DNA from: an uncultured beta proteobacterium
GTDB taxonomy: Bacteria > Pseudomonadota > Gammaproteobacteria > Burkholderiales > Burkholderiaceae_C
Assembly (NCBI GenBank): GCA_903920695.1
Contig: CAIXNB010000056.1
Location: forward strand, 1-40,281
Direction of reading: 5' to 3'
Length of the DNA stretch: 40,281 bases
The translations under genes and the position numbers were made by a program. The notes below the pieces were generated by a model that was given only the letters and a program-made list of their open reading frames with translations, searched no databases and was not told where the DNA came from. Shown here piece after piece: positions 20,413 to 39,236 of the stretch (position 1 is its first letter; each line of letters starts with the position of its first letter).

Positions 20413-22923
20413 TCACTCCCACTCTGGCACCTCATTGCTCTGTGCTGGCGCTTGCGGCGTGATCGCGGGGGCCAAGCTACGCTGGTATCCCCTTGGCCTT
20501 ACGCGCCCCTTGGCCCACTTAATGTTGCCCTGGAATCCCAGCATCTTCATCGCGCCCGAAACACTCTTCTGCATCGATCCAGCACGATCTACCTTGCCGA
20601 TGTCAATGTGCAACGCCTTGACCAGCAACTCGTGCGTGCTGAAGAACTCACGCTGATGATTCGACAGCAAGGTTCCGTTTTCAGAAACGCTGCCATCAAA
20701 GCCTTCGGCCAGTTCATCGGAGTTGACATAGCGCGCAAGGGCGTCATGCCACACATCAACAAACTTCCACTTTTCTTGCTCGGGGAAGAACAGCCGCGTC
20801 TCTTCCTCCTTTGTTGGGTAGCGCCGCGAGCCTTCCTTGTAGAAGTGCACTGCCTCGGCCATCAGTTGCGCGCGCATCTGTGTCAGTCTCTCGACCTCGA
20901 CCTCGGAACAATGCACTACCCAAAAGCGCCGGTCACCCGTTGCATCACGCAGGAACTCTCCCTGATTTGTGTCACCAGTGAGAACACAGTTTCGAGGAAA
21001 GGCCTGGAACCCCTTGGCATACGGCGGCCGAAAGCGATCGGTGCGCTCCGTGATGAATCCCTTGATGGCCGTGGCCTCGGATCGGCTCAGCGCATCGAGC
21101 TCGTTAAAGTTGAAGATCAGCCGGCCTTGCAGCGCCTGCAGCGATTCCTTGTCACCGATGCGGAACGAGCCAGCGCCGTAATAGTGCCCACCGAGAATAT
21201 TGAGCGCGCTGGTCTTGCCGGCGCCCTGCAGGCCCTGTAGCACCAGCATGTAGTCCATTTGACAGCCTGGCTCAAACACCCGGGCCACCATGCTGAGCAG
21301 GAAATACTCTGACGCAAGCCGCACATATTCGGTGTCGGCGGCGCCCAGGCAGTCGATCATCCAGTGCTGGCGGCGTTCGATGCCATCCCATGCCGCCGCC
21401 TCAAAATCGTCACGCACCGGGTTGTAGGTGTTGTCATGCGCCGACATCAAAACAGCCTGTTCGATCGTGACGGGGTTTGCCACAATCAGCTCATACCGAG
21501 ATGCGAGATATTCGGCCAGGCGAATATCGTCGAGCGTTTCCTTCCACTCGCCGGCCTTGCCACCCCATGGCGGCACGCGGCACTTATCGATCTTGTTGCT
21601 GAATTCGTTGCAGCGCACGAGCTCACGCAAATTCGGGTCTTCGCGCAGAGCAAAGTACACGTTCTCGCGGATCCCTTTGATCTCACCCTTGTCCGTCCGA
21701 TACGGAAAAAACAACACAGGCGTTCCATCATGTTGACCGCCATCTGAACCCCCTGCGCCGGGAGGCATGGGTTTCGATTTTTTTTTCTCATGCTCAACTG
21801 GCGGTGCCGTCAACTGAGCACGCACGACCGGCAGGCCTTCGGCAACATGCAGATCGTTGAAGTCGGTCGAGTCCTCAGCTCGTGTGGAAAATATTGGAAG
21901 CACCACGCGCGCGTTGTGGCGCTTGGCTGCAGCGAAGGCCTTGGCCCTGCCAGCGTTCTCGATCCTGAGCAGCTGCGTGACGCCATCACAGGCAATTGAT
22001 CCCTCGATGTAGTAAACGTCGCACTTGTCCTTTGACCAGCGCGCCTTGAGCTGCACCGTGCGCTTGTCGGGCAGTTCCCAGTGCATATCTCGCAAACCGC
22101 CAGCGCTCTTGGAGAAATCGGATTGCGTGACGCCGACACCGAGGGTCTGCATCCGCTCACAAAGCCGACGCACCAGGTGGCGGTCATCATCGGCCGCAAC
22201 CACAAATGCCGTTTCCGGGTACAGCTTGCGCCAGGCCGTCATGACCGGAAGGATGTTGCCGGCATCGAAGCACACCACGGTCGGCCAGCCGGTGGCCATG
22301 TGCGCTGTCGCGGCGGTTGCATAACCCTCGGCAAAGAGGACCGGCAGATCATCGGACATGTCACCCATCAGGTGAAAGTGCCCTTCCTTGACGGTACCGG
22401 TGCCGAACACCTTGCCGCCGTCCCTGGCGATCCACTGCAGGCCGTGCAGTTTGCCGGACAGATCGACCAGCGGAACCACTACAGAACCAAACGCAAAGCG
22501 CACGCCATAGGCTCCTACCTGCTTGCGCTCCAGGTACTCGCTGGCACCGTCAGGCCGCGATCGAGCCCAGAGCTTCGCAGCCTTCTCGACCGCCTCGGCC
22601 GCCAGGATCTTGCGATCTTCCTCAGCGGCCTTCTCGATTGCCCGTTGCTTTTCCTGCCAGGCCAGCTTCTCGGCGGGCGACCACTCGATCTGTGTTGGCT
22701 CGATCGTCCACCACTGGTCGCGTATGCCGTATATCCCGACGATGAAAACGCGCCTACTCTTCGGGCTGCTCCACTCGTGCAGGACAGCCCAGGCATTCTT
22801 CTTCTTTGGCCGACGCGCATCGCCTGCCCATGTGACCTTCTTGCCGTTGGGCGCCAGATCGGGTGGAGGTTCGATGTCCCGCTCGCGCATCTGCGCGATG
22901 ACGTCTTCGATTGAAGTTGCCAA
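20413..22923 (-). CDS. Primase-helicase (TOPRIM plus VirE-type ATPase)
   Basis: An 836-residue replication protein. A TOPRIM-like domain covers about residues 150-350 (PVLFAEGYATAATAHMATGW near 195, AFVVAADDDRH near 240, STDFNDLHVAEG near 350). The C-terminal half is a VirE/superfamily-3-like ATPase: LVLQGLQGAGKTSALNILGG with Walker A at about 563, LIFNFNELDALSRSEATAIK, TERTDRFRPPYAKGFQAFPR, and CVLTGDTNQGEFLRDATGDR. It should prime and unwind at the phage origin. The first codon is TTG (22923) without a clear ribosome site; an ATG twelve codons in is an alternative. It follows the CII-family gene by six bases. Confidence 0.88.
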   Translation of the reverse strand: MATSIEDVIAQMRERDIEPPPDLAPNGKKVTWAGDARRPKKKNAWAVLHEWSSPKSRRVFIVGIYGIRDQWWTIEPTQIEWSPAEKLAWQEKQRAIEKAAEEDRKILAAEAVEKAAKLWARSRPDGASEYLERKQVGAYGVRFAFGSVVVPLVDLSGKLHGLQWIARDGGKVFGTGTVKEGHFHLMGDMSDDLPVLFAEGYATAATAHMATGWPTVVCFDAGNILPVMTAWRKLYPETAFVVAADDDRHLVRRLCERMQTLGVGVTQSDFSKSAGGLRDMHWELPDKRTVQLKARWSKDKCDVYYIEGSIACDGVTQLLRIENAGRAKAFAAAKRHNARVVLPIFSTRAEDSTDFNDLHVAEGLPVVRAQLTAPPVEHEKKKSKPMPPGAGGSDGGQHDGTPVLFFPYRTDKGEIKGIRENVYFALREDPNLRELVRCNEFSNKIDKCRVPPWGGKAGEWKETLDDIRLAEYLASRYELIVANPVTIEQAVLMSAHDNTYNPVRDDFEAAAWDGIERRQHWMIDCLGAADTEYVRLASEYFLLSMVARVFEPGCQMDYMLVLQGLQGAGKTSALNILGGHYYGAGSFRIGDKESLQALQGRLIFNFNELDALSRSEATAIKGFITERTDRFRPPYAKGFQAFPRNCVLTGDTNQGEFLRDATGDRRFWVVHCSEVEVERLTQMRAQLMAEAVHFYKEGSRRYPTKEEETRLFFPEQEKWKFVDVWHDALARYVNSDELAEGFDGSVSENGTLLSNHQREFFSTHELLVKALHIDIGKVDRAGSMQKSVSGAMKMLGFQGNIKWAKGRVRPRGYQRSLAPAITPQAPAQSNEVPEWE

Positions 22924-22929
22924 GATCGA

Positions 22930-23403
22930 TCAGTCAGTAGTTTGACGGGTAAACGATGGCTTGCTGGCGACGTTGCGCTCCTGCAGCGCCTGGCGCAGCG
23001 AATGCACCGAGGCAATTAGCTCGCCGCATTCGCGGTCGAAACGCGCAAGCTCATTGTCAGTGACACAGCCATCCTGCAGGCTCACGGCGGCCTCGCTGCA
23101 CATATCTCCAAACTCCTTCACTGTGGCGGCCAGGCGCAACATGCAGTCGTCACCCAGATTCACATCTAACCGCGGCAGAGGAACCAGCATCTGGCCTGCC
23201 TCACCCGCCCAGGCCTCAAGGATGCGCAGGTCTCCCGTCATGTGCGTGATCTTCACCGTGTCCAGCAGGCCCAGCTTGGCAGTGCCAAACCCAGCAACCT
23301 CATGACTGAGCGTTGCGCCGTTCTTGCCTAAACGCAACCCCAGCGCCTGCGCGCCGCCCTTGTAGTCATGGACAACGTGATAGCTCGCGTCAAGAACATT
23401 CAT
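22930..23403 (-). CDS. CII-family phage regulator (CP76 type)
   Basis: A 157-residue protein starting MNVLDASYHVVHDYKGGAQA, with LRLGKNGATLSHEVAG and LLDTVKITHMTGDLRILEAW following. This is the pattern of the phage regulatory CII/CP76 family, whose members bind DNA through an N-terminal HTH and influence the lysis-lysogeny choice and early genes. Residues from about 75 on are helical with LRQALQERN. The gene lies first in the leftward replication block, just before the primase. A ribosome site (AAGGTG) precedes the ATG. Confidence 0.8.
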   Translation of the reverse strand: MNVLDASYHVVHDYKGGAQALGLRLGKNGATLSHEVAGFGTAKLGLLDTVKITHMTGDLRILEAWAGEAGQMLVPLPRLDVNLGDDCMLRLAATVKEFGDMCSEAAVSLQDGCVTDNELARFDRECGELIASVHSLRQALQERNVASKPSFTRQTTD

Positions 23404-24303: not shown

Positions 24304-24451
24304 CTGCCGCAAATCCGGCCGCAATTGCCGTCGCCACATTGGCGGCAACCAAATTCAACGCATTGGCGTCGATGGATACGTTGTCGCGCACTGCGCTGAC
24401 AACGGCGTCAGCTATTGCGCGATCAAGAATTTCACGTTGGTTTTCAGTCAT
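24266..24451 (-). CDS. Small phage protein downstream of cro-like gene
   Basis: A 61-residue protein starting MTENQREILDRAIADAVVSA and continuing VRDNVSIDANALNLVAANVA, an Ala/Val-rich helical protein. The ATG lies one base after the stop of the Cro-like gene (TGAAATG) with AGGAAG as ribosome site inside the end of that gene, so translation is coupled. Its position immediately after cro suggests an early regulatory role, but no family is recognised. The start region is duplicated at 24020-24056. Confidence 0.6.
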   Translation of the reverse strand: MTENQREILDRAIADAVVSAVRDNVSIDANALNLVAANVATAIAAGFAAVSASDEPLAPGS

Positions 24452-24452
24452 T

Positions 24453-24710
24453 TCAAACTTCCTGCCCTGCGGGCTGTTGAGAATTGGTAATTGGTGCAGC
24501 GCCAGTACCACGAAGGACGCTCCAGGCCACGTCTGGTCGAAGGTCTTCGCAGCGCACCAGGCCGCCCGTGGCGGCTTCGATGGCCGGGCAGCGCTCGGCG
24601 GACACAGCAGACAGGCCTTTGACCCATTGGCTAACCGCGCCAGGCGTCACTCCCAGGCGTTTAGCCAACTCCGCCTGGCTGTTTGTTTGGAAATAGGTTT
24701 TGAGGTCCAT
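24453..24710 (-). CDS. Cro-like repressor (YdaS family)
   Basis: An 85-residue HTH protein: MDLKTYFQTNSQAELAKRLG, VTPGAVSQWVKGLSAVSAER, then CPAIEAATGGLVRCEDLRPD. That is the YdaS/Cro-like pattern of lambdoid and related phages, with the HTH at about residues 11-35. It is divergent from the XRE repressor gene, with three operator palindromes between the two starts, the layout of a lambda immunity region. It should repress the repressor gene and allow lytic leftward expression. The ATG is close to CGGGA, a weak ribosome site. Confidence 0.8.
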   Translation of the reverse strand: MDLKTYFQTNSQAELAKRLGVTPGAVSQWVKGLSAVSAERCPAIEAATGGLVRCEDLRPDVAWSVLRGTGAAPITNSQQPAGQEV

Positions 24711-24719
24711 TCCCGTACT

Positions 24720-24781
24720 GTAGCCGGGCTATCCTATTTTTGCAATAGCCCGGCTGAAATATGTAATTTTAGCTAGGCTAT
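24720..24781. promoter_or_regulatory. Operator region with three TAGCCSGGCTA palindromes
   Basis: Between the divergent Cro-like and repressor genes are TAGCCGGGCTA (24721-24731, perfect), TAGCCCGGCTG (24746-24756, one mismatch) and TAGCTAGGCTA (24770-24780, one mismatch). Centres are 25 and 24 bp apart. The geometry is that of a lambda right operator with three sites. A possible leftward promoter is TTTCAG-17 bp-TAGGAT on the minus strand between sites 1 and 2; a possible rightward -10 is TATATT at 24779-24784. Confidence 0.8.
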
Positions 24782-24790
24782 ATTGGTACT

Positions 24791-25363
24791 ATGAGTAAAT
24801 CACACAGTCCGTTTCGAGCATCCAAGCTGGCACCTTGGGAAATTGAAGCGGCGGCTCGACTCAAGACGTTGTTTGAGGCGCGCGCCGGCGTTACGCAAAA
24901 ATCATTCGGCCAAACTTACGGAATTGGTGTTGGCGCCATGGTGTCGCAGTATTTGAATGCAAAGCGCCCTATTAGCTTGCCTACCGCAATCAAGTTTGCA
25001 CGCGGCTTATGCGTGTCTGTAAACGACATCTCCCCGACCTTGGCCGCGCAGCTTCCTCAAAGCCCAGTCGGTAACGAGTTCCCCAGCCACCCCCATGCGC
25101 AAGCTCAGATGGAGCGGGCCAAGGCCTTGAGCGATCAGGCGGCTACCCTGGGGCCAAAGGAGGCTATGGCCGGGCTCTCTGAGCTGGTAAGAGCGCTGCA
25201 CCCCACACTTGCCAACGCAGGGCGTGATGCACTCAGGCAGTGGGTGGATGGCACGATTGACGCCGAGCGGGCCGCCGACACCCTTGAAGCGCTAACCCAC
25301 GTGAGCGAAAACATGAAAATCGCACACCCGCCTTTACCGATAAAAAAACAGAGCAACGGGTAA
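24791..25363 (+). CDS. Prophage repressor, XRE-type HTH without S24 domain
   Basis: A 190-residue protein divergent from the Cro-like gene. The HTH covers about residues 35-65 (TQKSFGQTYGIGVGAMVSQY, then LNAKRPISLPTAIKFARGL). The rest is a linker and a helical region (AMAGLSELVRALHPTLANAG, DAERAADTLEALTH) that should dimerise. No GxSM...K serine-lysine pattern of LexA/CI autoproteolysis is present, so induction probably does not follow RecA-stimulated self-cleavage. It is the best candidate to bind the five TAGCCSGGCTA sites and keep the prophage silent. The 3' end overlaps the opposite BrnA-like gene by 30 bases. Confidence 0.75.
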   Translation: MSKSHSPFRASKLAPWEIEAAARLKTLFEARAGVTQKSFGQTYGIGVGAMVSQYLNAKRPISLPTAIKFARGLCVSVNDISPTLAAQLPQSPVGNEFPSHPHAQAQMERAKALSDQAATLGPKEAMAGLSELVRALHPTLANAGRDALRQWVDGTIDAERAADTLEALTHVSENMKIAHPPLPIKKQSNG

Positions 25364-25660
25364 ACCCGCTTTGCCAAGTTTTTCAGTTTTCAATTCGCCC
25401 GTCTGTTCCCGATGCGGGCAATAGACGGCAAACCACGCACACCGCAAGCATTGTGCTGTTTGAGCCCCGGTGTCCGCGCCGATTGAATATTGACCCACCC
25501 TGCCCAGCTCTACCGCCTGGCGTGACACCACGTTAACGCGCGTCTGCCAGCCCTTCCCACTGGCACGCATAGCGGCCAGCACATCGGGGTCAATTCGCAT
25601 GGAAACCATGGGGCGCTTAACGTCTTCCGGTGGGCGGTCGCGGGTACGGACGGCAACCAT
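25334..25660 (-). CDS. Orphan BrnA-like antitoxin-domain protein with Cys-rich tail
   Basis: A 108-residue frame starting at the ATG at 25660, which has GGAG five bases before it. Residues about 18-45 (VSMRIDPDVLAAMRASGKGW followed by QTRVNVVSRQAVELG) match the ribbon-helix-helix BrnA antitoxin pattern (DUF4415). The C terminus differs from BrnA: QCLRCAWFAVYCPHR, a possible metal-binding Cys/His group. No BrnT-type toxin is adjacent; instead the gene overlaps a small HNH nuclease gene by 44 bases. It may be a DNA-binding autoregulator of this cassette. Start choice is moderately sure; an inner ATG exists at the 17th-18th codon. Confidence 0.65.
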   Translation of the reverse strand: MVAVRTRDRPPEDVKRPMVSMRIDPDVLAAMRASGKGWQTRVNVVSRQAVELGRVGQYSIGADTGAQTAQCLRCAWFAVYCPHREQTGELKTEKLGKAGLPVALFFYR

Positions 25661-25925
25661 TGCGCTCCCACTTGTCCTTGTCTTTACCGTCGGCGATGGT
25701 CTGCCACTGCATGTTCTCTGGCCGGTCGGCGCCGCCACAGGCCAGCGGTTGGATGTGGTCGATGACGTAGCCAGCGCACGGCCCTTTGCGAGCGCCGTTG
25801 GCCGGGCACGGGTTGTTTTGTTTGAATTCGACCTTAGCGGACTGGCTGCGCTTGGTGCGGGCATCGATTGGCCCGCAAACCGCTAGCCCGCAAAGGACAA
25901 TGATGACGCCAAATATGCGGCTCAC
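25617..25925 (-). CDS. Small HNH endonuclease with N-terminal export-like sequence
   Basis: A 102-residue protein from a GTG at 25925 that overlaps the preceding stop (GTGA), the likely coupled start. Residues 1-20 (MSRIFGVIIVLCGLAVCGPI) are a hydrophobic export-like or lipoprotein-like signal. The rest is an HNH nuclease: NNPCPANGARKGPCAGYVID, DHIQPLACGGADRPENMQWQ and KDKWER. Such small exported HNH proteins occur widely in Proteobacteria; they probably act on DNA in the periplasm or cell surface. In a prophage it may serve exclusion of incoming DNA, but that is inference. Confidence 0.75.
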   Translation of the reverse strand: MSRIFGVIIVLCGLAVCGPIDARTKRSQSAKVEFKQNNPCPANGARKGPCAGYVIDHIQPLACGGADRPENMQWQTIADGKDKDKWERNGCRPYPRPPTGRR

Positions 25926-26332
25926 ATTGCTAGCCACAGACAGATGCCAACCCAAATTGCCAACATTACGATCAATGTGATGTTTGAATGTTGAACCCAA
26001 AACTCACCGATTTCTCTGCCTATTGCGTAGGGGTTTACTGAAGGGGTGGAAGCTGCTGCTTCGCGCGCGATTTGCGGCACCAGCATGGAACCACAATGCT
26101 TGCATTTGCGCGCATCACGCAATACAAGCTCCCGACAGTCCGGACACTTGATGTGCGTCTGCAGATTTGGTTCTGGGTGTTTCAAATCATCGGCGATGGC
26201 GCAAAAAATAAAGCCCAGCAGCGGACTCAGGAGCGCGGCAAAAACAAACCACCGAAACCCTGACCGGCCTTTTGATGCGCCATAAGCGCCAACAGCAACC
26301 GACAACGCAAACCACGAAAAGAACCAAACCAT
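25922..26332 (-). CDS. Zinc-ribbon membrane protein
   Basis: A 136-residue protein with a strong ribosome site (GGAGGCGAG) before its ATG. It has two hydrophobic segments at the N terminus (WFFSWFALSVAVGAYGAS and WFVFAALLSPLLGFIFCAI), a cytoplasmic zinc ribbon KCPDCRELVLRDARKCKHCG at about residues 63-82, and a C-terminal membrane helix (ITLIVMLAIWVGICLWLAM). Four cysteines in two CxxC pairs would hold one zinc. It is the first gene of a three-gene leftward cassette (HNH nuclease and BrnA-like follow with overlaps). The function is unknown; a membrane anchor for superinfection exclusion is one option. Confidence 0.7.
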   Translation of the reverse strand: MVWFFSWFALSVAVGAYGASKGRSGFRWFVFAALLSPLLGFIFCAIADDLKHPEPNLQTHIKCPDCRELVLRDARKCKHCGSMLVPQIAREAAASTPSVNPYAIGREIGEFWVQHSNITLIVMLAIWVGICLWLAM

Positions 26333-26445
26333 CTCGCCTCCAATCTGCTAGCTATCTTATTGCAGTATTTGGGGAATCATTTTCCAGAATGCCGGTAGTT
26401 TTAGAGCAACAACACTCCCTGTCTTGAGAAATATTTCAAAATAGT

Positions 26446-26483
26446 GTAGCCGGGCTATTGCATTAAGTGGATAGCCCGGCTAC
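26446..26483. promoter_or_regulatory. Second operator pair, TAGCCSGGCTA x2
   Basis: TAGCCGGGCTA (26447-26457) and TAGCCCGGCTA (26472-26482) are both perfect copies of the operator found at 24721-24780, with the same 25-bp centre spacing. Outward bases also match, giving a 13-bp inverted repeat with a 12-base spacer as in the other locus. They precede the rightward operon at 26527 and the leftward cassette at 26332, so the repressor can control both from here. Confidence 0.85.
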
Positions 26484-26526
26484 AGTTGCACTCATTACCC
26501 GCAATCCAGCGGGCAAGGAGTGAAAA

Positions 26527-26862
26527 GTGCAGACACCAACACAAGCGGCAAAGCGTACTCCGCGCCTCACATCACGCAGTAACCCTTGGCCTCACCCTGA
26601 GTTGCCGGATTACAAGGAAGTCGGGCTGCGGGCGTACTGGTTATGCGAATACATGCGCTGCGAAGCCCGCCGATATGAAATTTTGCGTATCTATGGCGCC
26701 GGAATTCTGCGGAACAATTTCGCGGCCTGTACAGCACTGCTTCGCGCGGACGATGGACTGCGCGACGAAGTCAAGGAGAGTTTGACTCTATTGATTGATT
26801 TTGGCGGGCTGCTGATGGCCTTCCCTGAGACGACAGCCATTGCACAAGGCGGTGCAGCATGA
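26527..26862 (+). CDS. First gene of rightward early operon, function unknown
   Basis: A 111-residue protein starting at GTG with a perfect ribosome site (AAGGAGTGAAAA). Content: a polar N terminus, LPDYKEVGLRAYWLCEYMRC, EARRYEILRIYGAGILRNNF and a helical end with LTLLIDFGGLLMAF. I do not recognise a family. As the first gene behind the operator pair it would be the earliest rightward product after induction. Its stop overlaps the ATG of the next frame by four bases (26859-26862). Confidence 0.65.
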   Translation: MQTPTQAAKRTPRLTSRSNPWPHPELPDYKEVGLRAYWLCEYMRCEARRYEILRIYGAGILRNNFAACTALLRADDGLRDEVKESLTLLIDFGGLLMAFPETTAIAQGGAA

Positions 26863-28302: not shown

Positions 28303-28521
28303 ATGCCCTCTGTAACCATCACTCTCACTGATACGCCGGATGGCGTCTCATGCCACAGCAGCTTCAAGCCTGCTGTCGGCCACCCATGCAGCCCGGCACA
28401 GTCCTACGCGCTGGAGATCATCAACCGCACGCATCGTCAATGGGGAATTCCCGCTGCCGCCAAGAGAGATGGCGTTGACATCGATGCCGTGCATTTCAAC
28501 TGCAACAAGGTGGCGCCATGA
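28303..28521 (+). CDS. Small phage protein, function unknown
   Basis: A 72-residue protein with an AGGAG ribosome site eight bases before the ATG, the only gene in this operon besides the first with a free-standing start. It begins MPSVTITLTDTPDGVSCHSS and includes HPCSPAQSYALEIINRTHRQ and VHFNCNKVAP. I know similar short proteins only as unnamed phage genes. Its stop overlaps the start of the ParB-like gene by ATGA, so it may set the translation level of that gene. Confidence 0.55.
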   Translation: MPSVTITLTDTPDGVSCHSSFKPAVGHPCSPAQSYALEIINRTHRQWGIPAAAKRDGVDIDAVHFNCNKVAP

Positions 28522-30509
28522 AAGAATACTCCGCAGACACCGGCGAGGTCATTGCCGACGCCATCATTGAATATGCTGACCTGGCGCTTGACACCATCGT
28601 CGCCAGCCCCACCAACCCCCGCAAGCGCTTCAACCCCGCCAAGATGGCCGAACTGGCGGCCAGCATCAAGGCCGACGAAGTGCACGAGCCGATCGTCGTG
28701 CGGCCGCTGCCTGCAGCACGACTGCAGGAGAGTTTCCTTGACCGCAGGCCTGGCGCACCGCTGCCCACGCACGAGCTGGTGTCTGGTGAGCGCCGCTGGC
28801 GTGCCAGCATCGATGCCGGCAAGACCACGATCCCGGCGCGCATCAAGCGCTACACCGATGAACAGGTGGTGCGCATCCAGATCGTGGAGAACACGCAGCG
28901 TGCCGATCTGCACCCGATGGAAGAGGCTGAAGGCTTCCAGCACATGATGACGTTGCTAGGCATCAACGCTGACCAGGTTGCCGATGAAGTGGGCGTCAGC
29001 CGCTCGACCGTGTTTGCGCGCATGAAGCTGCTGGACCTGTGCGTGTCTGCGCGCGATGCTTTCTATTCCGAGAAGATCGACCAGAGCCGCGCCCTGATCA
29101 TTGCCCGCGTGCCGGATGAGCAGCTGCAACTCAAGGCGCTGAAGGAAGCCTGCGCGACCGATTGGCAGGGTAGCGTTCCAAGCGTTCGCAGATTTCAGGT
29201 GTGGGTGCGCCAGCATTTGATGCTGGATCTGGACAAGGCCCGCTTCAAAATCACCGACGTTAGCCTGGTGCCGGCTGCCGGCAGTTGCCATGAGTGCCCA
29301 AAGCGCACCGGCGCTGCGCCGGATCTGTTTGCCGATGTGGATAAGGCAGATGTCTGCACCGACACCAAGTGCTTTCACCAAAAGCAAGCTGTTCATGACA
29401 AAGACGTTGCGGCAGCAGCAGAGGCGATGGGTCGGACCATCATCGACGGCAAGGCAGCCAAGCGTGTGTGGGAGTATGAGCGCCAAAACAACCTCAACGG
29501 CTATCGTCGCCTGGACCGTCCCGACCCACGTGTGGAAGGTAACAAATCGCTCAAGAAGTTGCTGGGCAAGGACTGCCCTGAGCCTGTGCTGCTCAAGAGC
29601 CCGCACGACGGCAGCCTGATCGAGGTCGTGGATGACGCCACGGTTACCCAACTACTGAAAGACCGCGGCCTGCTCTCGCCGGCCCAGGCGCGCGCCACGC
29701 GCGATATCAGTGTCCACGAGGCCAAGGCCAAACTCGAAGAAAAATATAACCGCACCTGGCGCCGTCTGGCCATCGAGCAGACTTACGAGACCATGATGCG
29801 CAGCCCAGAGGCTTACACCATCGGCATGCCAACCATCCGGCTGTTGGCCAAGATGCTGCTGCAGGGTTTGGTAAGCGACGATCGCGCCCACACGGCCGAA
29901 CTGATTGGCGTTGGTAAGGTGGCCGATGCTGACGGCATCAAGTCCTATATCGAAACCGCCACTGATATGGAAGTTGGCGGCGTGTTGTTGCTTCTGTTCA
30001 TGCAGCACGACATGCGCTTCAATGAGTACGCAGGCATCAAAGAGCCTGAGCGCATCAATGCGGTGGCGGAAGACTGCAAAGTAGACCTGAAATCCATCCA
30101 GGATGAGGTCAAAAAGCAGATGAAGGCCAAGGCGACACCCAAGAAAACCACTTTGGTCAAGCCCCCCGCTGCGCAGCAAATGCAGATTACCGCCGATCCC
30201 AAGGCTGGCGCGGTCAAGCCGCGCCAGGCCAAGCAAAAGCTCTCTGCCCAGGAAGCCATAACAGGCATCGCTGAAGCGATGCAGGGTATGGAACAGGCCG
30301 CGACTGCGCGGCCTGAAGCCCAGGCAAGCGAGGGAACAGCCAAGACGCCCAAGACCGCGAAGGCCAAAGGCAAAACTACCAAGGCAGTGAGCGTGCCATA
30401 CAAAGGGCCCAACGGCGAGGCCTGGAGTGGCCGAGGGCTGCAGCCCAGATGGGTTCGAGTGCACATCGAGCGCGGCGGGAAGTTGGACGATCTGAAGGTG
30501 GCGGCGTGA
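28518..30509 (+). CDS. ParB-like protein with C-terminal H-NS DNA-binding domain
   Basis: A 663-residue protein. Residues about 25-180 are a ParB/Spo0J domain: ASPTNPRKRFNPAKMAELAA, LVSGERRWRASIDAGKT (the GxRR CTP-binding motif near 90), VENTQRADLHPMEEAEGF near 123, and an HTH at VADEVGVSRSTVFARMKLLD. A Cys group (CHECPK, then CTDTKCF) near 257-290 may bind zinc. After a Lys/Ala-rich linker (about 540-625) the last 38 residues, YKGPNGEAWSGRGLQPRWV, carry the H-NS/BpH3-type DNA-binding signature. No ParA partner is nearby, so a role other than plasmid-style partition is likely, such as DNA coating, regulation or recombination. Confidence 0.85.
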   Translation: MKEYSADTGEVIADAIIEYADLALDTIVASPTNPRKRFNPAKMAELAASIKADEVHEPIVVRPLPAARLQESFLDRRPGAPLPTHELVSGERRWRASIDAGKTTIPARIKRYTDEQVVRIQIVENTQRADLHPMEEAEGFQHMMTLLGINADQVADEVGVSRSTVFARMKLLDLCVSARDAFYSEKIDQSRALIIARVPDEQLQLKALKEACATDWQGSVPSVRRFQVWVRQHLMLDLDKARFKITDVSLVPAAGSCHECPKRTGAAPDLFADVDKADVCTDTKCFHQKQAVHDKDVAAAAEAMGRTIIDGKAAKRVWEYERQNNLNGYRRLDRPDPRVEGNKSLKKLLGKDCPEPVLLKSPHDGSLIEVVDDATVTQLLKDRGLLSPAQARATRDISVHEAKAKLEEKYNRTWRRLAIEQTYETMMRSPEAYTIGMPTIRLLAKMLLQGLVSDDRAHTAELIGVGKVADADGIKSYIETATDMEVGGVLLLLFMQHDMRFNEYAGIKEPERINAVAEDCKVDLKSIQDEVKKQMKAKATPKKTTLVKPPAAQQMQITADPKAGAVKPRQAKQKLSAQEAITGIAEAMQGMEQAATARPEAQASEGTAKTPKTAKAKGKTTKAVSVPYKGPNGEAWSGRGLQPRWVRVHIERGGKLDDLKVAA

Positions 30510-31735: not shown

Positions 31736-31932
31736 GCAAACTTAGCCAGCTTCGCAAACTCTGGAATTATGAGAAATCTGCAGCTCGCTGCATCAACTGC
31801 GCCAACTATCTCAAGCCAGGGTTATTTCTACGCAACAGCCTACCGGTCAAGTCTCCAGCAATTTGTGCGGCCGGAGACTTTCTGACGCGACCGAATGCAG
31901 TTTGTGACAAATACAAGGATGAATCGCTATGA
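31732..31932 (+). CDS. Small Cys-rich phage protein, function unknown
   Basis: A 66-residue protein with ATGA overlaps. It starts MSKLSQLRKLWNYEKSAARC and has CINCANY, AICAAGDF and VCDKYKDE, four or five cysteines in a spacing (CxxC...C...C) fitting one zinc site. A similar design is seen in other small proteins of this operon. No family recognised. Confidence 0.55.
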   Translation: MSKLSQLRKLWNYEKSAARCINCANYLKPGLFLRNSLPVKSPAICAAGDFLTRPNAVCDKYKDESL

Positions 31933-32201
31933 ACACCGCATTCCTACTCATGGCGCAGTACAACGCCCAGGTCATCATCCCTGTGTCCAGCGTCGTGAAG
32001 GACTATTTCCCACACCTTAGCACCGACAAGTTCCTGCGCAAAGTGGCGCTGGGCGATATCAATATCCCGCTGGCCCGTATGGAGCCCGGCTCACAAAAGG
32101 GCGCGAAGGGTGTGCACCTGACCGACCTGGCTGAGTACATCGATGCGCGGCGTGCGGCAGCTGTTAAGGAAGCTAGGCAGCTGGCAGGAATATCTGCATG
32201 A
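31929..32201 (+). CDS. PrtN-family transcription activator
   Basis: A 90-residue protein with the PrtN (pyocin activator) signature throughout: FLLMAQYNAQVIIPVSSVVK, DYFPHLSTDKFLRKVALGDI, NIPLARMEPGSQKGAKGVHL, and TDLAEYIDARRAAAVKEA. In Pseudomonas PrtN switches on pyocin genes and is itself held down by a repressor. Here it lies near the end of the early operon, so it may activate the structural genes after induction. ATGA overlap with both neighbours. Confidence 0.85.
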   Translation: MNTAFLLMAQYNAQVIIPVSSVVKDYFPHLSTDKFLRKVALGDINIPLARMEPGSQKGAKGVHLTDLAEYIDARRAAAVKEARQLAGISA

Positions 32202-33764: not shown

Positions 33765-35162
33765 TCAGATGATCTTGGAGAAGCGTGCGCGAGTGCGGTC
33801 GGTCTGCAGGTAGCGATCAAACACCATGGCGACAGCGCGAACAAAGAACCAACCCATCGAGGTCACCTGGATGCCGGTGTCGCTCAGCGTTACCAGACCC
33901 TGGTCTGAGAGCTTTTGCAGCGCTTCGATTTCAGTGGCGAAGTACTTGCGGAACTCGATCAGATGCGCCAGTTCGATTGACTCGAACGAAACCACGCCCT
34001 GGCACATCAACGCCATGATGACGGCGCGGCGCAGCACATCATCGCGCGACAGCGCCAGACCACGCACCACCGGAAACTGCCCCTGGTCGAGGAAGTCGCA
34101 ATACTCTTCCATGGTCTTGGCGTTCTGGCTGTAGGTGGCGCCGATCTTGCCAATTGACGATACACCCAAGCCAATCAGATCGCAGTCCGGCTGCGTGCTG
34201 TAGCCCTGGAAATTGCGGTGCAGACGACCTTGGCGCTTGGCAATCGCCAGCGCGTCGGTCGGCAATGCAAAGTGGTCCATGCCCACATAGACGTAACCCG
34301 CACCCATGAACGCCGCCATCGAGCGCGCCAACATCGCGACCTTGGCCGCACCAGTCGGTATTTCGGTGGTTGTGATTCTGCGCTGGGGTTTGAAGCGCTC
34401 CGGCAGATGCGCGTAGGCGTAGAGCGCGATGCGTTCCGGACGCAACTCGACCACTTGTGCCAGTGTGCGATCAAATGACTCTGGATTCTGCAAGGGCAGG
34501 CCGTAGATCAGGTCAACGTTGATCGAATCAAAATTGCGCTCACGTGCCGCCGCGACCAGTGCAAAGACCTGTTCAGCCGGTTGCACACGGTGCACCGACT
34601 TTTGCACTGCCGGGTCGAAGTCCTGGACGCCAAAACTCAGGCGGTTGAAGCCCAGTTCCGCCAGCGTGTCGAGGCGGGACGCGTCAATCGTGCGCGGATC
34701 AACTTCGATTGAGTACTCGCCACCAGGAACAAAGGTGAAATTGCGGCGCAACATGGCCATCAATTCACGCAGTTCGTCATCCGTCAAGAACGTCGGCGAA
34801 CCGCCGCCCAAGTGCACTTGCGACACGGCCTGCCCGACCCCCAGTTGCTGGGTGTGCAAGTCGACCTCGCGACTCAGGTAGCGCAGATACGGCGCGGCCC
34901 GGTCATGGTGCTTTGTGATGATTTTGTTGCACGCGCAGTAGTAGCACAGCGATTCACAAAACGGAATGTGCACATAGAGTGACAAAGGCGACGCGGTGGC
35001 GGCGGTGCCGGCACCGCGCAGCGTCAGGGCCTGCTTGTAATCTTCAGCGGTAAAGGCTTCGACAAAACGGTCTGCCGTTGGGTACGAGGTATAGCGCGGA
35101 CCCGATACGTCGAACCGGCGCAGCAGTTCTTCGGAAATGGGTTCAGCAACGGCTGCATTCAT
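33765..35162 (-). CDS. hemN: Oxygen-independent coproporphyrinogen III oxidase
   Basis: A 465-residue radical SAM enzyme that decarboxylates coproporphyrinogen III to protoporphyrinogen IX without oxygen. Diagnostic are SGPRYTSYPTADRF near the N terminus, the cluster motif PFCESLCYYCACNK (CxxxCxxC plus the HemN extra Cys), VHLGGGSPTFL, and DLIGLGVSSIG. The start is ATG at 35162 with AAGGAG five bases away; a frame extension to 35204 has no such support. A perfect FNR box lies 54 bases upstream, so expression should rise at low oxygen, together with the oxidase genes nearby. Confidence 0.95.
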   Translation of the reverse strand: MNAAVAEPISEELLRRFDVSGPRYTSYPTADRFVEAFTAEDYKQALTLRGAGTAATASPLSLYVHIPFCESLCYYCACNKIITKHHDRAAPYLRYLSREVDLHTQQLGVGQAVSQVHLGGGSPTFLTDDELRELMAMLRRNFTFVPGGEYSIEVDPRTIDASRLDTLAELGFNRLSFGVQDFDPAVQKSVHRVQPAEQVFALVAAARERNFDSINVDLIYGLPLQNPESFDRTLAQVVELRPERIALYAYAHLPERFKPQRRITTTEIPTGAAKVAMLARSMAAFMGAGYVYVGMDHFALPTDALAIAKRQGRLHRNFQGYSTQPDCDLIGLGVSSIGKIGATYSQNAKTMEEYCDFLDQGQFPVVRGLALSRDDVLRRAVIMALMCQGVVSFESIELAHLIEFRKYFATEIEALQKLSDQGLVTLSDTGIQVTSMGWFFVRAVAMVFDRYLQTDRTRARFSKII

Positions 35163-35215
35163 GAAAACTCCTTGGCATTGGGTGCTGAATATGCCGCGAA
35201 TCATAACTTTTGTTC

Positions 35216-35229
35216 TTGATGTCTATCAA
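35216..35229. promoter_or_regulatory. Perfect FNR/ANR box
   Basis: TTGATGTCTATCAA matches the consensus TTGAT-N4-ATCAA at all ten fixed positions. It lies between the divergent hemN and fnr genes, 54 bases from the hemN start and 76 from the fnr start, and can serve both. Confidence 0.93.
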
Positions 35230-35257
35230 AAGAGGGGGTATTGAAATGTCCCTAAAT

Positions 35258-35271
35258 TTGACCGACATCAG
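35258..35271. promoter_or_regulatory. Imperfect FNR box before fnr
   Basis: TTGACCGACATCAG matches eight of ten consensus positions and lies 34 bases before the fnr start. Its place near the likely start of transcription would suit negative autoregulation. Confidence 0.5.
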
Positions 35272-35304
35272 GACTTCCTGCAAATTAGTGCCAAAATAAG
35301 GGGG

Positions 35305-36027
35305 ATGAATCCTCAAACCATCAAAGTAGCCTGTTCCAACTGTAATTTGCGGGAACTTTGCATGCCGATCGACCTGAGCCGGGAAGAACTCGACCGTATC
35401 GATGATCTGGTCGGTGCCCGGCGCAAAATCAAGCGCGGCACGACGCTTTTTCGCAATGGCGAGAAGTTCACCAGCCTCTACGCGATTCGCACCGGCTTCT
35501 TCAAAACCTGTGTGGCAGCGGAAGACGGCCGTGATCAGGTCACCGGATTCCAGATGGCGGGCGAGGTGGTCGGTCTTGACGGCATCGTCCACGACCATCA
35601 CACCTGCGACGCCGTGGCACTCGAAGACGCCGAAGTCTGCGTCATGCCGTTTGACCGCATTGAAGAACTGTCGCGTGAAGTGACGTCCCTGCAACGTCAC
35701 GTGCACAAGATCATGAGCCGGGAAATCGTGCGCGAGCACGGTGTGATGTTGCTGCTGGGCAGCATGCGCGCCGAGGAGCGGCTCGCCACCTTCCTGTTGA
35801 ACCTGGTACAACGCCTGCATACCAGGGGTTTTTCACAGTCCGAACTGATCTTGCGCATGACACGCGAAGAAATCGGCAGCTTTCTCGGTCTGAAACTTGA
35901 AACCGTGAGTCGCACCTTCTCGCGCTTTGTGGAAGACGGCATTGTCGAAGTCAAGCAGCGCCATGTGCGCATCCTCAATACCGACGCGCTGCGCGAGATC
36001 GTCAACCTCAAACCAGCGGGCAGCTAA
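35305..36027 (+). CDS. fnr: Fnr-type oxygen-sensing transcription regulator
   Basis: A 240-residue CRP/FNR protein. Cys10, Cys13 and Cys19 (ACSNCNLRELC) and Cys101 (HHTCDAVAL) correspond to the four [4Fe-4S] ligands of E. coli FNR (20, 23, 29, 122). The effector domain has QMAGEVVGLDGI, and the C-terminal HTH includes EIGSFLGLKLETVSRTFSRF with the E..SR residues that read TTGAT. It activates microaerobic and anaerobic genes when the cluster is intact. It is divergent from hemN, with FNR boxes between, and convergent with the cco cluster. The product is close to family length. Confidence 0.95.
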   Translation: MNPQTIKVACSNCNLRELCMPIDLSREELDRIDDLVGARRKIKRGTTLFRNGEKFTSLYAIRTGFFKTCVAAEDGRDQVTGFQMAGEVVGLDGIVHDHHTCDAVALEDAEVCVMPFDRIEELSREVTSLQRHVHKIMSREIVREHGVMLLLGSMRAEERLATFLLNLVQRLHTRGFSQSELILRMTREEIGSFLGLKLETVSRTFSRFVEDGIVEVKQRHVRILNTDALREIVNLKPAGS

Positions 36028-36036
36028 GCGCTCGAC

Positions 36037-36336
36037 TCATCCCACTTTAGGACCTTCCTGTTTCGAGCAAGCATTGGGGCGGTCTGCGGCGGGCAGTGGG
36101 CAGCGGTTGACCTCGAACGGCGACATTGACAACAGGGTTGTCAGGCCGCTCGACAGCATGGTGATGATCCAGAAGACAAAGAAGGCAAGCGTGTAGACAC
36201 CTTGCCTCGACATTTCAACCGGCTGACCGAACCAGTGCAGATCCTGCGGATCAACCACTGAAAACACCAACACTTCCAGCACGCCGGCCACCAGAAAGGC
36301 TGGCCAGGCGATCCACATCATTCTCTGCGGCAGCAT
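36037..36336 (-). CDS. Small membrane protein of cco cluster, function unknown
   Basis: A 99-residue protein from the ATG at 36336, with AGGAG eight bases before it. Two membrane helices are clear: MWIAWPAFLVAGVLEVLVFS and GVYTLAFFVFWIITMLSSGL. A polar tail ends NACSKQEGPKVG. The frame extends upstream to 36480 over the ccoH gene end, but the ribosome site favours the shorter form. It is last in the leftward cco gene row and ends ten bases from the fnr stop. A role in oxidase assembly is guessed from place only. Confidence 0.7.
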   Translation of the reverse strand: MLPQRMMWIAWPAFLVAGVLEVLVFSVVDPQDLHWFGQPVEMSRQGVYTLAFFVFWIITMLSSGLTTLLSMSPFEVNRCPLPAADRPNACSKQEGPKVG

Positions 36337-36370
36337 TTTGTTGTCTCCTGTGTGCGCTTGCACGCGGGGT

Positions 36371-36646
36371 TCAAGGTTTGGCCGGAGCCGTGCGCACCGG
36401 CACACCGGTTGCCGCATGGTTGCGGGCCTGCAGCGCTGGCGCCAAGCTGGTCTCGCTGCCCAGTTCCTTGTTGATTTCAATACCCTTGCGATAGTAGTCT
36501 TCGCTCAGCACGGGATCAGGCCGACTGATCGCAAGGTACAACGTAATGAAGCTGGCCACCACGACAATGGCGGGACCCGCCACCACCATCCAAACATGAC
36601 CGAACTTCCACCAGGGTGCGTTGGGCACGGGCGTATCGTTTTGCAT
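36371..36646 (-). CDS. ccoH: cbb3 oxidase assembly protein CcoH (FixH family)
   Basis: A 91-residue protein with one membrane helix (VWMVVAGPAIVVVASFITLY) and the FixH pattern PWWKFGHVW before and DPVLSEDYYRKGIEINKELG after it. FixH/CcoH is stably bound to cbb3 oxidase and needed for its assembly. Members are often 150-170 residues, so this is a short form. It starts nine bases after ccoG. Confidence 0.85.
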   Translation of the reverse strand: MQNDTPVPNAPWWKFGHVWMVVAGPAIVVVASFITLYLAISRPDPVLSEDYYRKGIEINKELGSETSLAPALQARNHAATGVPVRTAPAKP

Positions 36647-36655
36647 CGTCTCTCC

Positions 36656-38092
36656 TTATCGTGGCAGCATGAATGTTGATTTCTCGCTCAGATGGCCGTC
36701 TGAGTCGAGCGCATCGATGCCGAAGTGGATCGGGTGCGAACCCGGCGCGGCCGCATCAAACGGCGCTTGCACGCGCACTGCAACCCAGCGCGCCTGCGTC
36801 GATTCGACCTGCACCTCGCTGTCCGAACTGATGATCAGCCCAGGCAAGCCGCTGACCGTGATCCGGTAACGCTGCGCCGACTCCAGTGCGTTCATGACCT
36901 GCAGCCGGTAGACGTTCTCGATGCGTCCGCCCGCCACGATCCGCGCCGTGACCCCGCGGTCGCGCACCACATCGACCTTGAACGGTATGCGCAGCGAGAG
37001 GCTGACAAACATGGCGATCACGATCGATGCCAGGATGGCGCTGTAGACCAGCACGCGCGGACGCAGCACATGGCGCAGCGTCTGCGACTGGCTCCAGTGC
37101 TGCGCCATGGCGTTGTCGGTCGAGTACTTGATCAGGCCGCGCGCATAAGCCATCTTGTCCATCACGGTGTCGCAGGCGTCAACGCAGACACCGCAGCCAA
37201 TGCATTCGTATTGCAAGCCCTTGCGGATGTCAATGCCGGTTGGGCAGACCTGCACACACAGGCTGCAGTCAACACAGGCGCCCAGGTTCAGGGCTGCCGG
37301 ATCGGCCTTGCGCGAGCGCGCACCGCGCGGTTCGCCACGCTCGGCGTCGTAGGTGACGATCAGCGTGTCTTTGTCGAACATGGCGCTCTGGAAGCGCGCA
37401 TAGGGGCACATGTGCTTGCAGACCTGCTCACGCATGAAACCGGCGTTGCCGTAAGTGGCAAAGCCGTAGAAGAAAGTCCAGAAAATCTCCCACGAACCCA
37501 TGCTCATTTGAACGACTTCGACGCCAAGTTCCTTGATCGGGGTGAAGTAGCCGACAAAGCTGAAGCCGGTCCACAGCGCAAGCGCCAACCACAGCAGGTG
37601 CTTGAGGCTTTTTCGGCCGGCTTTCTGCAGGCTCCAGGGCTGCTCGTCGCGGCGCATGCGGGCGCTGCGGTTGCCTTCGACCTTGTTCTCGATCCAGAGG
37701 AAGATTTCGGTGTAGACGGTTTGCGGGCAGGCGTAGCCGCACCACAGGCGCCCGGCCACGGCCGTGAACAGGAACAAAGACAGAGCGCTGATGACCATCA
37801 GGCCGGTCAGGTAGATGAAGTCCTGCGGGTAGAGCACCAGGCCGAAGATGTAGAAGCGCCGCGCACCCAGGTCAAACAAAACCGCCTGACGCTGGCCCCA
37901 CTGCAGCCAGGGCAGTCCGTAGAAGATGATTTGCGTCAGCCAGACCATGGCCCAGCGCCAGTTGCTGAAGAAGCCCGCCGTGCTACGCGGGTAGATCTTC
38001 TGGTGCACGGCGTACAGCGAGATCATCCCACCATCGGCCGGCTGTGCTGCGATGGGGATGACTTTGCGGGGTTCGGATGCTTTCTTGTTCAA
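36656..38092 (-). CDS. ccoG: Cytochrome oxidase accessory protein CcoG (FixG)
   Basis: A 478-residue membrane iron-sulfur protein. It has RKVIPIAAQ and SLYAVHQKIYPR near the N terminus, several membrane helices (WAMVWLTQIIFYGLPWLQWG, VISALSLFLFTAVAGRLWCG), two ferredoxin motifs (CVDCSLCVQVCPTG and CIGCGVCVDACDTV) and a C-terminal immunoglobulin-like periplasmic domain. CcoG reduces copper for delivery to the oxidase. The first codon is TTG at 38092; no ATG gives a better N terminus, as the KVIPIAA segment is conserved in the family. It follows ccoP by 48 bases. Confidence 0.93.
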   Translation of the reverse strand: MNKKASEPRKVIPIAAQPADGGMISLYAVHQKIYPRSTAGFFSNWRWAMVWLTQIIFYGLPWLQWGQRQAVLFDLGARRFYIFGLVLYPQDFIYLTGLMVISALSLFLFTAVAGRLWCGYACPQTVYTEIFLWIENKVEGNRSARMRRDEQPWSLQKAGRKSLKHLLWLALALWTGFSFVGYFTPIKELGVEVVQMSMGSWEIFWTFFYGFATYGNAGFMREQVCKHMCPYARFQSAMFDKDTLIVTYDAERGEPRGARSRKADPAALNLGACVDCSLCVQVCPTGIDIRKGLQYECIGCGVCVDACDTVMDKMAYARGLIKYSTDNAMAQHWSQSQTLRHVLRPRVLVYSAILASIVIAMFVSLSLRIPFKVDVVRDRGVTARIVAGGRIENVYRLQVMNALESAQRYRITVSGLPGLIISSDSEVQVESTQARWVAVRVQAPFDAAAPGSHPIHFGIDALDSDGHLSEKSTFMLPR

Positions 38093-38140
38093 GCGAGTTT
38101 ATTCAAGAGTCTGTTTGCTTACGCTCGCATTGTCCGCTGC

Positions 38141-39058
38141 TTACTTCGCCGCTGCAGGGCCCTTGTTCGAAAGACCCCAGACATACGACGCCAAGACATG
38201 GATTTGCTCAGGTGTGAACTTGTCACCCTGCGCTGGCATCTGGTTGATCTTGCCGTTGTTGACCATCGCAATGATGGCGGCCTCGCCGTAACCGTGCAGC
38301 CAGATGTCGTCGGTTAGATTGGCCGAACCAATGGTCTGATTGCCTTTGCCATCGGGCCCATGACAGGCGGCGCAAACCACAAACTTCGGTTTACCCAGCG
38401 ATGCCCGCAGCGAATCGTGCGGACTGCCCGACAGGCTCAGGACATAGTTCGCCACGTTCTTGACGTCATCTGCCGTACCTACGGCTGCCGCCATCGGTGG
38501 CATCTGGGCCCGACGCCCCTTGATGATGTCGGCCTTGATGATGTCGGGCGTGCCGCCACCCAGCCAGTCGTTGTCAGTCAGATTCGGAATGCCCTTGTTG
38601 CCGCGCGCGTCCGAGCCATGACAGGGCGCGCAGGTGTTCATGAATAAACGCTCACCGATCGCCATCGCTTGCGGGTCCTTGGCCACGTCTTCCGGCTTCA
38701 TGACCATGAACTTGGCGTACAGGGGTGCCACGTCGGCGTTGCCCTTGTCCACCTCGGCTTGATGCTGCCCGGTCGAACTCCAGCCGAACTTGCCACCGTA
38801 GGTGCCCAGACCCGGATAAAGCGCCAAATAGATCAGCGCAAAGATGACCGTGATAACGAACAACCAGGCCCACCAACGCGGCAGGGGATTGTTCATTTCG
38901 CGCAGATCGCCGTCCCAGACGTGACCCGTCGTGTTGTCAGAGCTGGCCATGACCTTGGCCTTGCCACTGAGCCAAAGCAGCACGAGGCAGGCCACGATGC
39001 TGACGACGGTGATTGCCGCAACATAGATCGACCAGAAGTTGCTTGTGAAGTCGCTCAT
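38141..39058 (-). CDS. ccoP: cbb3 cytochrome c oxidase subunit III (CcoP)
   Basis: A 305-residue dihaem cytochrome c. An N-terminal membrane region (IYVAAITVVSIVACLVLLWL and WWAWLFVITVIFALIYLALY) anchors two c-type domains with haem motifs CAPCH and CAACH, each followed by a distal Met region (QMPPMAAAV and QMPAQGDKF). It passes electrons from soluble cytochrome c to CcoO/CcoN. The start has AAGGA seven bases upstream. Typical family length. Confidence 0.95.
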   Translation of the reverse strand: MSDFTSNFWSIYVAAITVVSIVACLVLLWLSGKAKVMASSDNTTGHVWDGDLREMNNPLPRWWAWLFVITVIFALIYLALYPGLGTYGGKFGWSSTGQHQAEVDKGNADVAPLYAKFMVMKPEDVAKDPQAMAIGERLFMNTCAPCHGSDARGNKGIPNLTDNDWLGGGTPDIIKADIIKGRRAQMPPMAAAVGTADDVKNVANYVLSLSGSPHDSLRASLGKPKFVVCAACHGPDGKGNQTIGSANLTDDIWLHGYGEAAIIAMVNNGKINQMPAQGDKFTPEQIHVLASYVWGLSNKGPAAAK

Positions 39059-39078
39059 TTTGTTCCTTAGATGGTGCG

Positions 39079-39222
39079 TCAGTCTTGCTCGAAAGGCAGC
39101 CTGGCGGCGGTCTCGAAATCAGCAGCGTTGCGGCTCGAATAAGCCCAGATGATGATGCCGATGAAGGTGACGAAGCTGACAACGGTTGCCAGCGAACGCA
39201 GGGTATTGATATCAAAATCCAT
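39079..39222 (-). CDS. ccoQ: cbb3 oxidase small subunit CcoQ
   Basis: A 47-residue protein between ccoO and ccoP. It starts MDFDINTLRSLATVVSFVTF and continues IGIIIWAYSSRN, a single membrane helix followed by a short acidic tail ending PFEQD. CcoQ stabilises the oxidase complex. A GGGAG ribosome site lies seven bases before the ATG. The length agrees with the family (about 45-65 aa). Confidence 0.9.
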   Translation of the reverse strand: MDFDINTLRSLATVVSFVTFIGIIIWAYSSRNAADFETAARLPFEQD

Positions 39223-39236
39223 GAACAATCTCCCGT

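Follow-up and report, generated by a model that had tools for sequence, protein, structure and literature searches.

The window analysed here (positions 1-40,281 of contig CAIXNB010000056.1, from an uncultured beta proteobacterium of the Burkholderiales) is a prophage, and the draft genome to which it belongs comprises 4,884,813 bases in 231 contigs. It encodes an 85-amino-acid Cro-like protein of the YdaS type (PF15943; positions 24453-24710, minus strand) and, divergently, a 190-amino-acid repressor with a lambda-CI-like helix-turn-helix (HTH) domain (24791-25363, plus strand), both of which had been named in an original prediction made from the sequence alone. Three palindromic sites lie between the two genes, the arrangement by which lambda-like immunity regions are recognised, and two more lie beyond the repressor gene. 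Judged from sequence comparison, the five sites very probably serve as operators in a prophage immunity switch of the lambda kind, with the pair beyond the repressor gene placed at a predicted second early promoter, PL.

Predicted operator sites in the window and the genome

The right cluster comprises site 1 (TAGCCGGGCTA, 24721-24731), site 2 (TAGCCCGGCTG, 24746-24756) and site 3 (TAGCTAGGCTA, 24770-24780), and the left cluster site 1 (TAGCCGGGCTA, 26447-26457) and site 2 (TAGCCCGGCTA, 26472-26482). Start-to-start distances are 25 and 24 bp on the right and 25 bp on the left, as the original prediction had said. Its reading of TAGCCSGGCTA at all five positions stands for 24721, 26447 and 26472, where the match is exact, but not for 24746 (one mismatch) or 24770 (two mismatches). 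Site 3 agrees with the looser palindrome TAGC-N3-GCTA at 8 of 8 positions, and judged from the relatives described below, this is the real consensus of the predicted operator.

Genome-wide there are three exact copies of the motif, far above chance, and all of them lie in the window, in line with the expectation that it would be nearly confined to these loci. Allowing one mismatch yields 27 further copies, namely the site at 24746 and 26 scattered elsewhere. At up to two mismatches the window holds 10 matches against a shuffle mean of 6.06, a weak excess that was reached in 6 of 100 shuffles. The pattern TAGCNNNGCTA occurs 11 times in the genome, four times in the window and once on each of seven other contigs; at the genome background rate, about 0.0025 copies would be expected in a 1.76-kb stretch. 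Backward-read control patterns, which are not composition-matched, are commoner (220 for the TAGCCSGGCTA count and 163 for the TAGCNNNGCTA count). Among 399 genomes, the exact pair pattern was found across the order in its own genome only, and a looser pair pattern occurred within the family in 4 of 399 genomes, including its own, compared with about 26 for a backward-read control that again was not composition-matched. A nucleotide search with positions 24400-26600 gave no phage match and one plasmid match covering 10% of the query.

These counts speak to the idea that the sites are chance matches or members of a dispersed repeat family. The 26 scattered one-mismatch copies would suit such a family, as would tandem repeats of TAGCCSGGCTA in other genome records (L009, L012 and L014-L016). 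Against it, none of the 26 copies lies within 30 bp of another, neither exact copies nor pairs turned up when the rest of the genome was searched, and the exact motif occurs only here, beside cro and a repressor gene as in the relatives. We rejected this explanation, whose probability we regard as negligible.

We also considered that the pairs might form RNA hairpins acting as terminators or attenuators, since the left pair is a perfect 14-nucleotide inverted repeat (arms 26445-26458 and 26471-26484, loop of 12 nucleotides). By sequence, no T-run follows the left pair (the terminator scan itself allowed loops of 3-8 nucleotides only). Moreover, the two sites of a pair may differ in their centres, as in locus L047, where TAGCTTTGCTA stands with TAGCACCGCTA and each is still palindromic, so that pairing between sites is not conserved in relatives. 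This reading is highly improbable, and we rejected it as well.

Predicted promoters and the spacing of sites

Returning to the operator interpretation, we found that each aligned pair encloses a predicted promoter in the order site, -35 element, about 17 bp, and -10 element overlapping the end of the next site. In the window, consensus matching and the comparison with relatives place a predicted promoter PR for cro at 24717-24745 on the minus strand, with a -35 element TTGCAA (24740-24745) that site 2 abuts, a 17-bp spacer, and a -10 element TACAGT (24717-24722) overlapped by site 1. The predicted promoter PL (26458-26486, plus strand) leads into the rightward genes and has the -35 element TTGCAT (26458-26463), a 17-bp spacer, and the -10 element TACAGT (26481-26486). 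A predicted weak promoter for the repressor gene, PRM (24757-24784, plus strand), combines a poor -35 element, AAATAT, with a 16-bp spacer and a -10 element TATATT (24779-24784) that site 3 overlaps. In the relative L017 the left pair reads site-TTGACA-17-TAATCT. In the stretch L017:2438-2508, the third site lies 35 bp from the second rather than 25 bp, about one helical turn more.

To the original prediction, the equal spacing of sites at both clusters was a sign of cooperative repressor binding and looping. We compared it with promoter geometry in 25 modules of the TAGC-N3-GCTA class (13 cro promoters and 12 left promoters). In all 25, pair spacing equals the predicted -35/-10 spacer (16-18 bp) plus 6 or 8 bp. 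The upstream site ends in GCTT in nine modules, whose sites lie 22-23 bp apart, and in GCTA or GCTG in the other 16, whose sites lie 25-26 bp apart; the best -35 element begins two bases earlier in the former than in the latter. The promoter script took the best of seven -35 positions and three spacers, the TA at the site end favours a -10 element there, and some of the loci are related. The relation between spacing and -35 position is clean within the TAGC class but only partly convincing over all operator classes. There, 37 loci out of 67 passed the filter (r = 0.59), correcting for the offset reduces the variance very little, and three of 16 large-offset loci are exceptions, one of them being phage AP1, in which the -35 element was misassigned. 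Because spacing follows promoter geometry, equal spacing is no evidence of cooperativity or looping, and that part of the prediction fell.

A repressor-mediated DNA loop joining the two clusters as in lambda, with a spacing that reflects cooperative repressor dimers, is nevertheless a serious possibility, which we place somewhat below even. In its favour, the second cluster lies on the repressor side of the first in all 12 testable loci, and short repressors of such switches can octamerise, as described in the available text on RacR (PMC11014345) and PaaR2 (PMC8630535). Against it stand the promoter geometry that accounts for spacing in 25 of 25 modules, an inter-cluster distance that ranges from 0.27 to 4.5 kb, and the consideration that repressing PL on its own would not require a loop.

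The prediction had also placed the cassette of genes between the clusters under repressor control, a possibility for which the promoter scores give no support. At the left cluster of 12 loci, consensus matches average 8.1 of 12 on the strand that leads away from the repressor and 7.0 on the one that leads toward it (p 0.06); in the window, the strands toward and away from the cassette both score 7 of 12.

The predicted -10 elements of cro and of the repressor gene in the window each end 6 nucleotides before the ATG. Among the 66 Cro loci, the rules of the script give 46 a promoter of at least 8 of 12, and in these the -10 element ends 6-8 nucleotides before the chosen start codon in 28 cases and at other distances in 18. 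Since the -10 elements lie so close to the start codons, leaderless messenger RNAs are predicted: cro and repressor transcripts would start at their ATG. According to the accessible parts of the respective papers, measurement has found leaderless mRNAs for paaR2 (PMC8630535) and for cI and cro of PY54 (PMC4488713).

The two-cluster layout is conserved in relatives

A search with the pair pattern returned two viral contigs and nine genome contigs. Four of these 11 (L008, L010, L011 and L017) carry cro, a repressor gene and both clusters, and a fifth (L007) has cro, a repressor gene and the right cluster; two of the relatives with the full layout are Malikia records. The cro and repressor proteins of L011 and L008 are identical, and we therefore counted the two once. 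The remaining six contigs were dropped for having no cro or repressor match: one is from Klebsiella (L013), and the other five (L009, L012, L014, L015 and L016) contain arrays that repeat about every 24 bp and include TAGCCCGGCTA or TAGCCGGGCTA.

Because loci found by the pattern would make the argument circular, we also sought loci by the Cro protein, using the best 80 of 256 relatives, of which 66 remained after removal of identical upstream regions; phage AP1 was added through its repressor. Fourteen loci of the TAGC-N3-GCTA class were examined, counting a far pair at 14 or more of 16 matches. A far pair lies on the repressor side in 12 of the 12 loci with at least 2.5 kb of sequence there (about 73.6 kb searched) and on the cro side in none of the 14 (about 78.7 kb searched), at 0.27-4.5 kb from cro over the class. 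In the two loci lacking one, L007 and L025, the repressor side extends for no more than about 1 kb, and no clear right cluster is seen in L025 either. Of the 12, one is the window itself, three (L008, L010 and L017) came from the pair pattern, and eight were found without the motif, AP1 through its repressor and seven through Cro; the contig of L008 also came up through Cro, as L027. The two-locus, lambda-like operator system of the original prediction thus recurs in relatives found by their proteins rather than by the motif.

In the wider Cro family, a script score assigned a right cluster to 44 of 66 loci, four of which had too little flanking sequence. Of the 40 left, 20 have a far pair (at least 17 of 20 matches) on the repressor side, and none of the 40 has one on the other side. 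In none of these 20 loci did permuted half-sites score as high as the observed ones; some of the 20 are closely related.

In L078 (about 3150-3460), the second operator pair lies just 270 bp from cro, and no divergent open reading frame (ORF) of at least 70 amino acids starts within 260 bp upstream of cro. In three other loci (L008:4660-5655, L022:421-1416 and L023:346-1398), the gene beside the second pair reads, from its translation, as a DNA cytosine methyltransferase.

Several observations weigh against reading the sites as operators of a conserved two-cluster switch. The sites at 24746 and 24770 depart from TAGCCSGGCTA, the window promoters are weak consensus matches (PR 8 of 12, PL 7 of 12), and a stricter promoter scan of 24400-26600 found none. 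The Cro search drew on the best 80 relatives only, and the compared loci are partly related (L008 with L010, L030 with L089). L030 and L089 have the weakest far pairs (14 of 16), which are unclear in the wider scan (15 and 13 of 20); in 20 of the 40 loci of that scan, no second pair stood out clearly.

Cro recognition helix and operator class

The window Cro matches the YdaS profile PF15943 with 78.6 bits against a cut-off of 30, its matches include the Cro structures 3bd1, 8co2 and 8c7k, and it has only one match in the whole genome. We compared Cro recognition helices with operator classes in 52 loci (70, less 17 that could not be classified and one identical row), and found that operator class goes with the helix. 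Helices of the T[PQ][GA]A type occur in 10 of 14 TAGC loci and those of the [TS][KR][GA]AV type in 9 of 9 TAGA loci, and a threonine follows the third helix position in 10 of 10 TAGGC or AAGGC loci. Exceptions among the TAGC loci are L049 and L060, in which that threonine is present, and AP1 and L017, in which the helix is of yet another kind. Cro columns outside the helix are also strongly associated with operator class, because the sequences are related. A correlation of this kind between helix and operator was reportedly described for Cro proteins by Hall et al. in 2005.

Two repressor subfamilies accompany the same putative operators

The original prediction spoke of a lambda-type repressor, which is apt for the N-terminal domain: residues 13-89 of the window repressor match the lambda CI DNA-binding domain (E 0.006), and residues 17-90 match HK140 cI at 39%. 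It does not extend to the C-terminal half, in which a family search found no Peptidase S24 domain; the repressors of L008, L030 and AP1 have one. Without this domain, RecA-stimulated self-cleavage is an unlikely route of induction, and the window prophage is probably induced in another way. HK140 sites look different by eye, being of the AATAC...GTATT type, so similarity at the level of 39% in the HTH domain does not fix the operator. No close relative of the repressor was confirmed in the viral collection, and apart from the repressor itself, 198 related genomes yielded a single weak match, which lies in a congener and concerns the C-terminal half.

Repressors beside TAGC-N3-GCTA sites belong to two HTH subfamilies, accompanied by the same Cro family. 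Nine form the lambda-CI-like subfamily, with scores of 111 bits or more against a profile derived from these same nine, and those of L070, L049, L060 and L025 form the other, scoring at most 19.4 bits against that profile; by sequence, the two groups are remote kin at best. S24 domains are present in some and absent from other members of both subfamilies. In eight aligned lambda-CI-like repressors, Q53 and R59 are invariant, with Q53 placed in the recognition helix by alignment to lambda CI.

The sites might instead serve the YdaS-type Cro alone, with the 190-residue protein binding elsewhere or being non-functional. The constancy of the Cro family beside two distinct repressor subfamilies would agree with this, as would the missing S24 domain of the window repressor. 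On the other side, nine lambda-CI-like repressors stand beside this operator class, the eight that were aligned sharing the invariant residues just described, and the window repressor has an intact reading frame and a distant relative, including the C-terminal part, in a congener. We consider a Cro-only function unlikely. From the conservation and from the precedent of prophage CP-933P described below, we infer that both the repressor and Cro bind the operators.

More tentatively, the operator array and Cro may constitute a stable core in which the repressor is exchangeable, so that two HTH subfamilies, with or without S24, serve the same TAGC-N3-GCTA operators at two promoters. We consider this less likely than not.

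A model for the switch

In our model of the operator switch, each lytic promoter lies between two sites, its -35 element abutting one and its -10 element overlapped by the other. Repressor on the sites would shut off PR, and with it cro, the cII-like gene and the replication genes, as well as PL and the rightward genes, leaving the prophage silent. Since site 3 overlaps the -10 element of the weak repressor promoter, Cro would be expected to occupy it first and the repressor only at high level. The use of the promoters, the binding of both proteins, the order of binding and leaderless transcription are all inferred.

Comparison with known switches

In phage lambda, the order is cro, OR, cI, intervening genes, OL and early genes, and the order in the window is the same. 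The lambda cI gene runs from a three-site operator cluster toward the other cluster, and the window repressor gene likewise points from its three-site cluster toward the two-site cluster. The window also shares with lambda the three sites at OR and a lambda-CI-like N-terminal domain. Lambda operators are 17-18 bp long and three lie at OL, whereas the window has 11-bp TAGC-N3-GCTA sites, of which two are seen on the left. The window further differs from lambda in its YdaS-type Cro, its repressor lacking S24 and its intervening genes on the opposite strand.

Prophage CP-933P of E. coli O157:H7 (PaaR2/YdaS/PL933P) resembles the window in using YdaS as Cro and in having a second promoter with similar operators. 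In the accessible text of the CP-933P study (PMC8630535), its 97-bp intergenic region holds several operators, PL933P has -35 and -10 elements identical to those of PR933P, and PaaR2, which octamerises, and YdaS bind a shared intergenic region and both repress PL933P. Its operators differ from those of the window, being 18-bp repeats with the consensus GTTTAGTAA plus pseudosymmetric operators, and PL933P has three operators; its repressor belongs to a toxin-antitoxin operon; and binding was measured there, whereas the case for the window is sequence-based. The Rac prophage (RacR/YdaS) likewise has YdaS beside a repressor with repeated palindromes between them; RacR is an octamer with a C-terminal fold that differs from that of CI (PMC11014345), and the available parts of PMC5700373 and PMC11014345 mention no second cluster at a distance. 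The CP-933P and RacR work thus establishes this architecture, in which YdaS acts as Cro and the repressor is short. The CI/MOR switch of the lactococcal phage TP901-1 is a further comparable system, in which the repressor reportedly has a C-terminal oligomerisation domain that forms hexamers.

Acidovorax phage AP1 (OM049504) resembles the window: close to its cro gene stand TAGCATCGCTA, AAGCCATGCTA and TAGCATCGCTA, and at a distance of about 1.8 kb there is a second pair, with sites 25 bp apart and a TTGACA element. Its repressor has an S24 domain, unlike that of the window. The words repressor and operator are absent from the main text of one AP1 paper (PMC11597636). The original prediction knew of no description of this operator, and in the accessible literature that we searched on operator spellings, YdaS operators, leaderless cro, Cro helices and AP1 we found none for TAGC-N3-GCTA; the kind of system, however, has been described (PMC8630535). 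The operator sequence is new as far as we searched, and the system is known in kind.

Genes around the switch

Downstream of cro, on the minus strand, lie genes for a CII-like regulator (Phage_CP76, 22930-23403) and a VapE-like replication primase/helicase (20413-22923), followed farther leftward by terminase, portal, head and tail genes. Between the operator clusters is a minus-strand cassette (25334-26332) that comprises a BrnA-antitoxin-like ORF, an overlapping HNH-like ORF and a membrane protein with a weak zinc-ribbon match. The first two share the region 25334-26000, where the BrnA-antitoxin-like ORF (PF14384) overlaps, in another frame, the ORF that reads as HNH-like and has no family match. 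Positions 25654-25871 are 74% identical to a Polaromonas plasmid.

The likely first ORF downstream of PL (26527-26862, plus strand) encodes 111 amino acids without a family match. It is followed by small ORFs and then by genes for a ParB-like protein (28518-30509, plus strand) that also has a C-terminal H-NS domain, and a PrtN/excisionase-like protein (31929-32201, plus strand) that matches both PyocinActivator PrtN (PF11112) and a phage excisionase family. Host-looking genes on the minus strand at 33765-39863 (hemN-, FixG-, FixP- and FixO-like) probably place the right end of the prophage shortly before about 33.8 kb.

Implications

Regular operator spacing can be set by promoter geometry, which advises caution in inferring cooperativity or looping from sequence. 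The sites described here provide a map of predicted operators, open to experimental test, for a kind of prophage switch that is common in viral contigs and has few measured examples in the parts of the literature covered, and they make repressors with and without a self-cleaving domain comparable on the same operators. Of these points, the possible exchange of repressor types within one operator class most deserves to be followed up. If repressors are indeed exchangeable, immunity would be shared between phages whose repressors are unlike, and a phage could change how it is induced, by DNA damage or otherwise, while keeping its operators.

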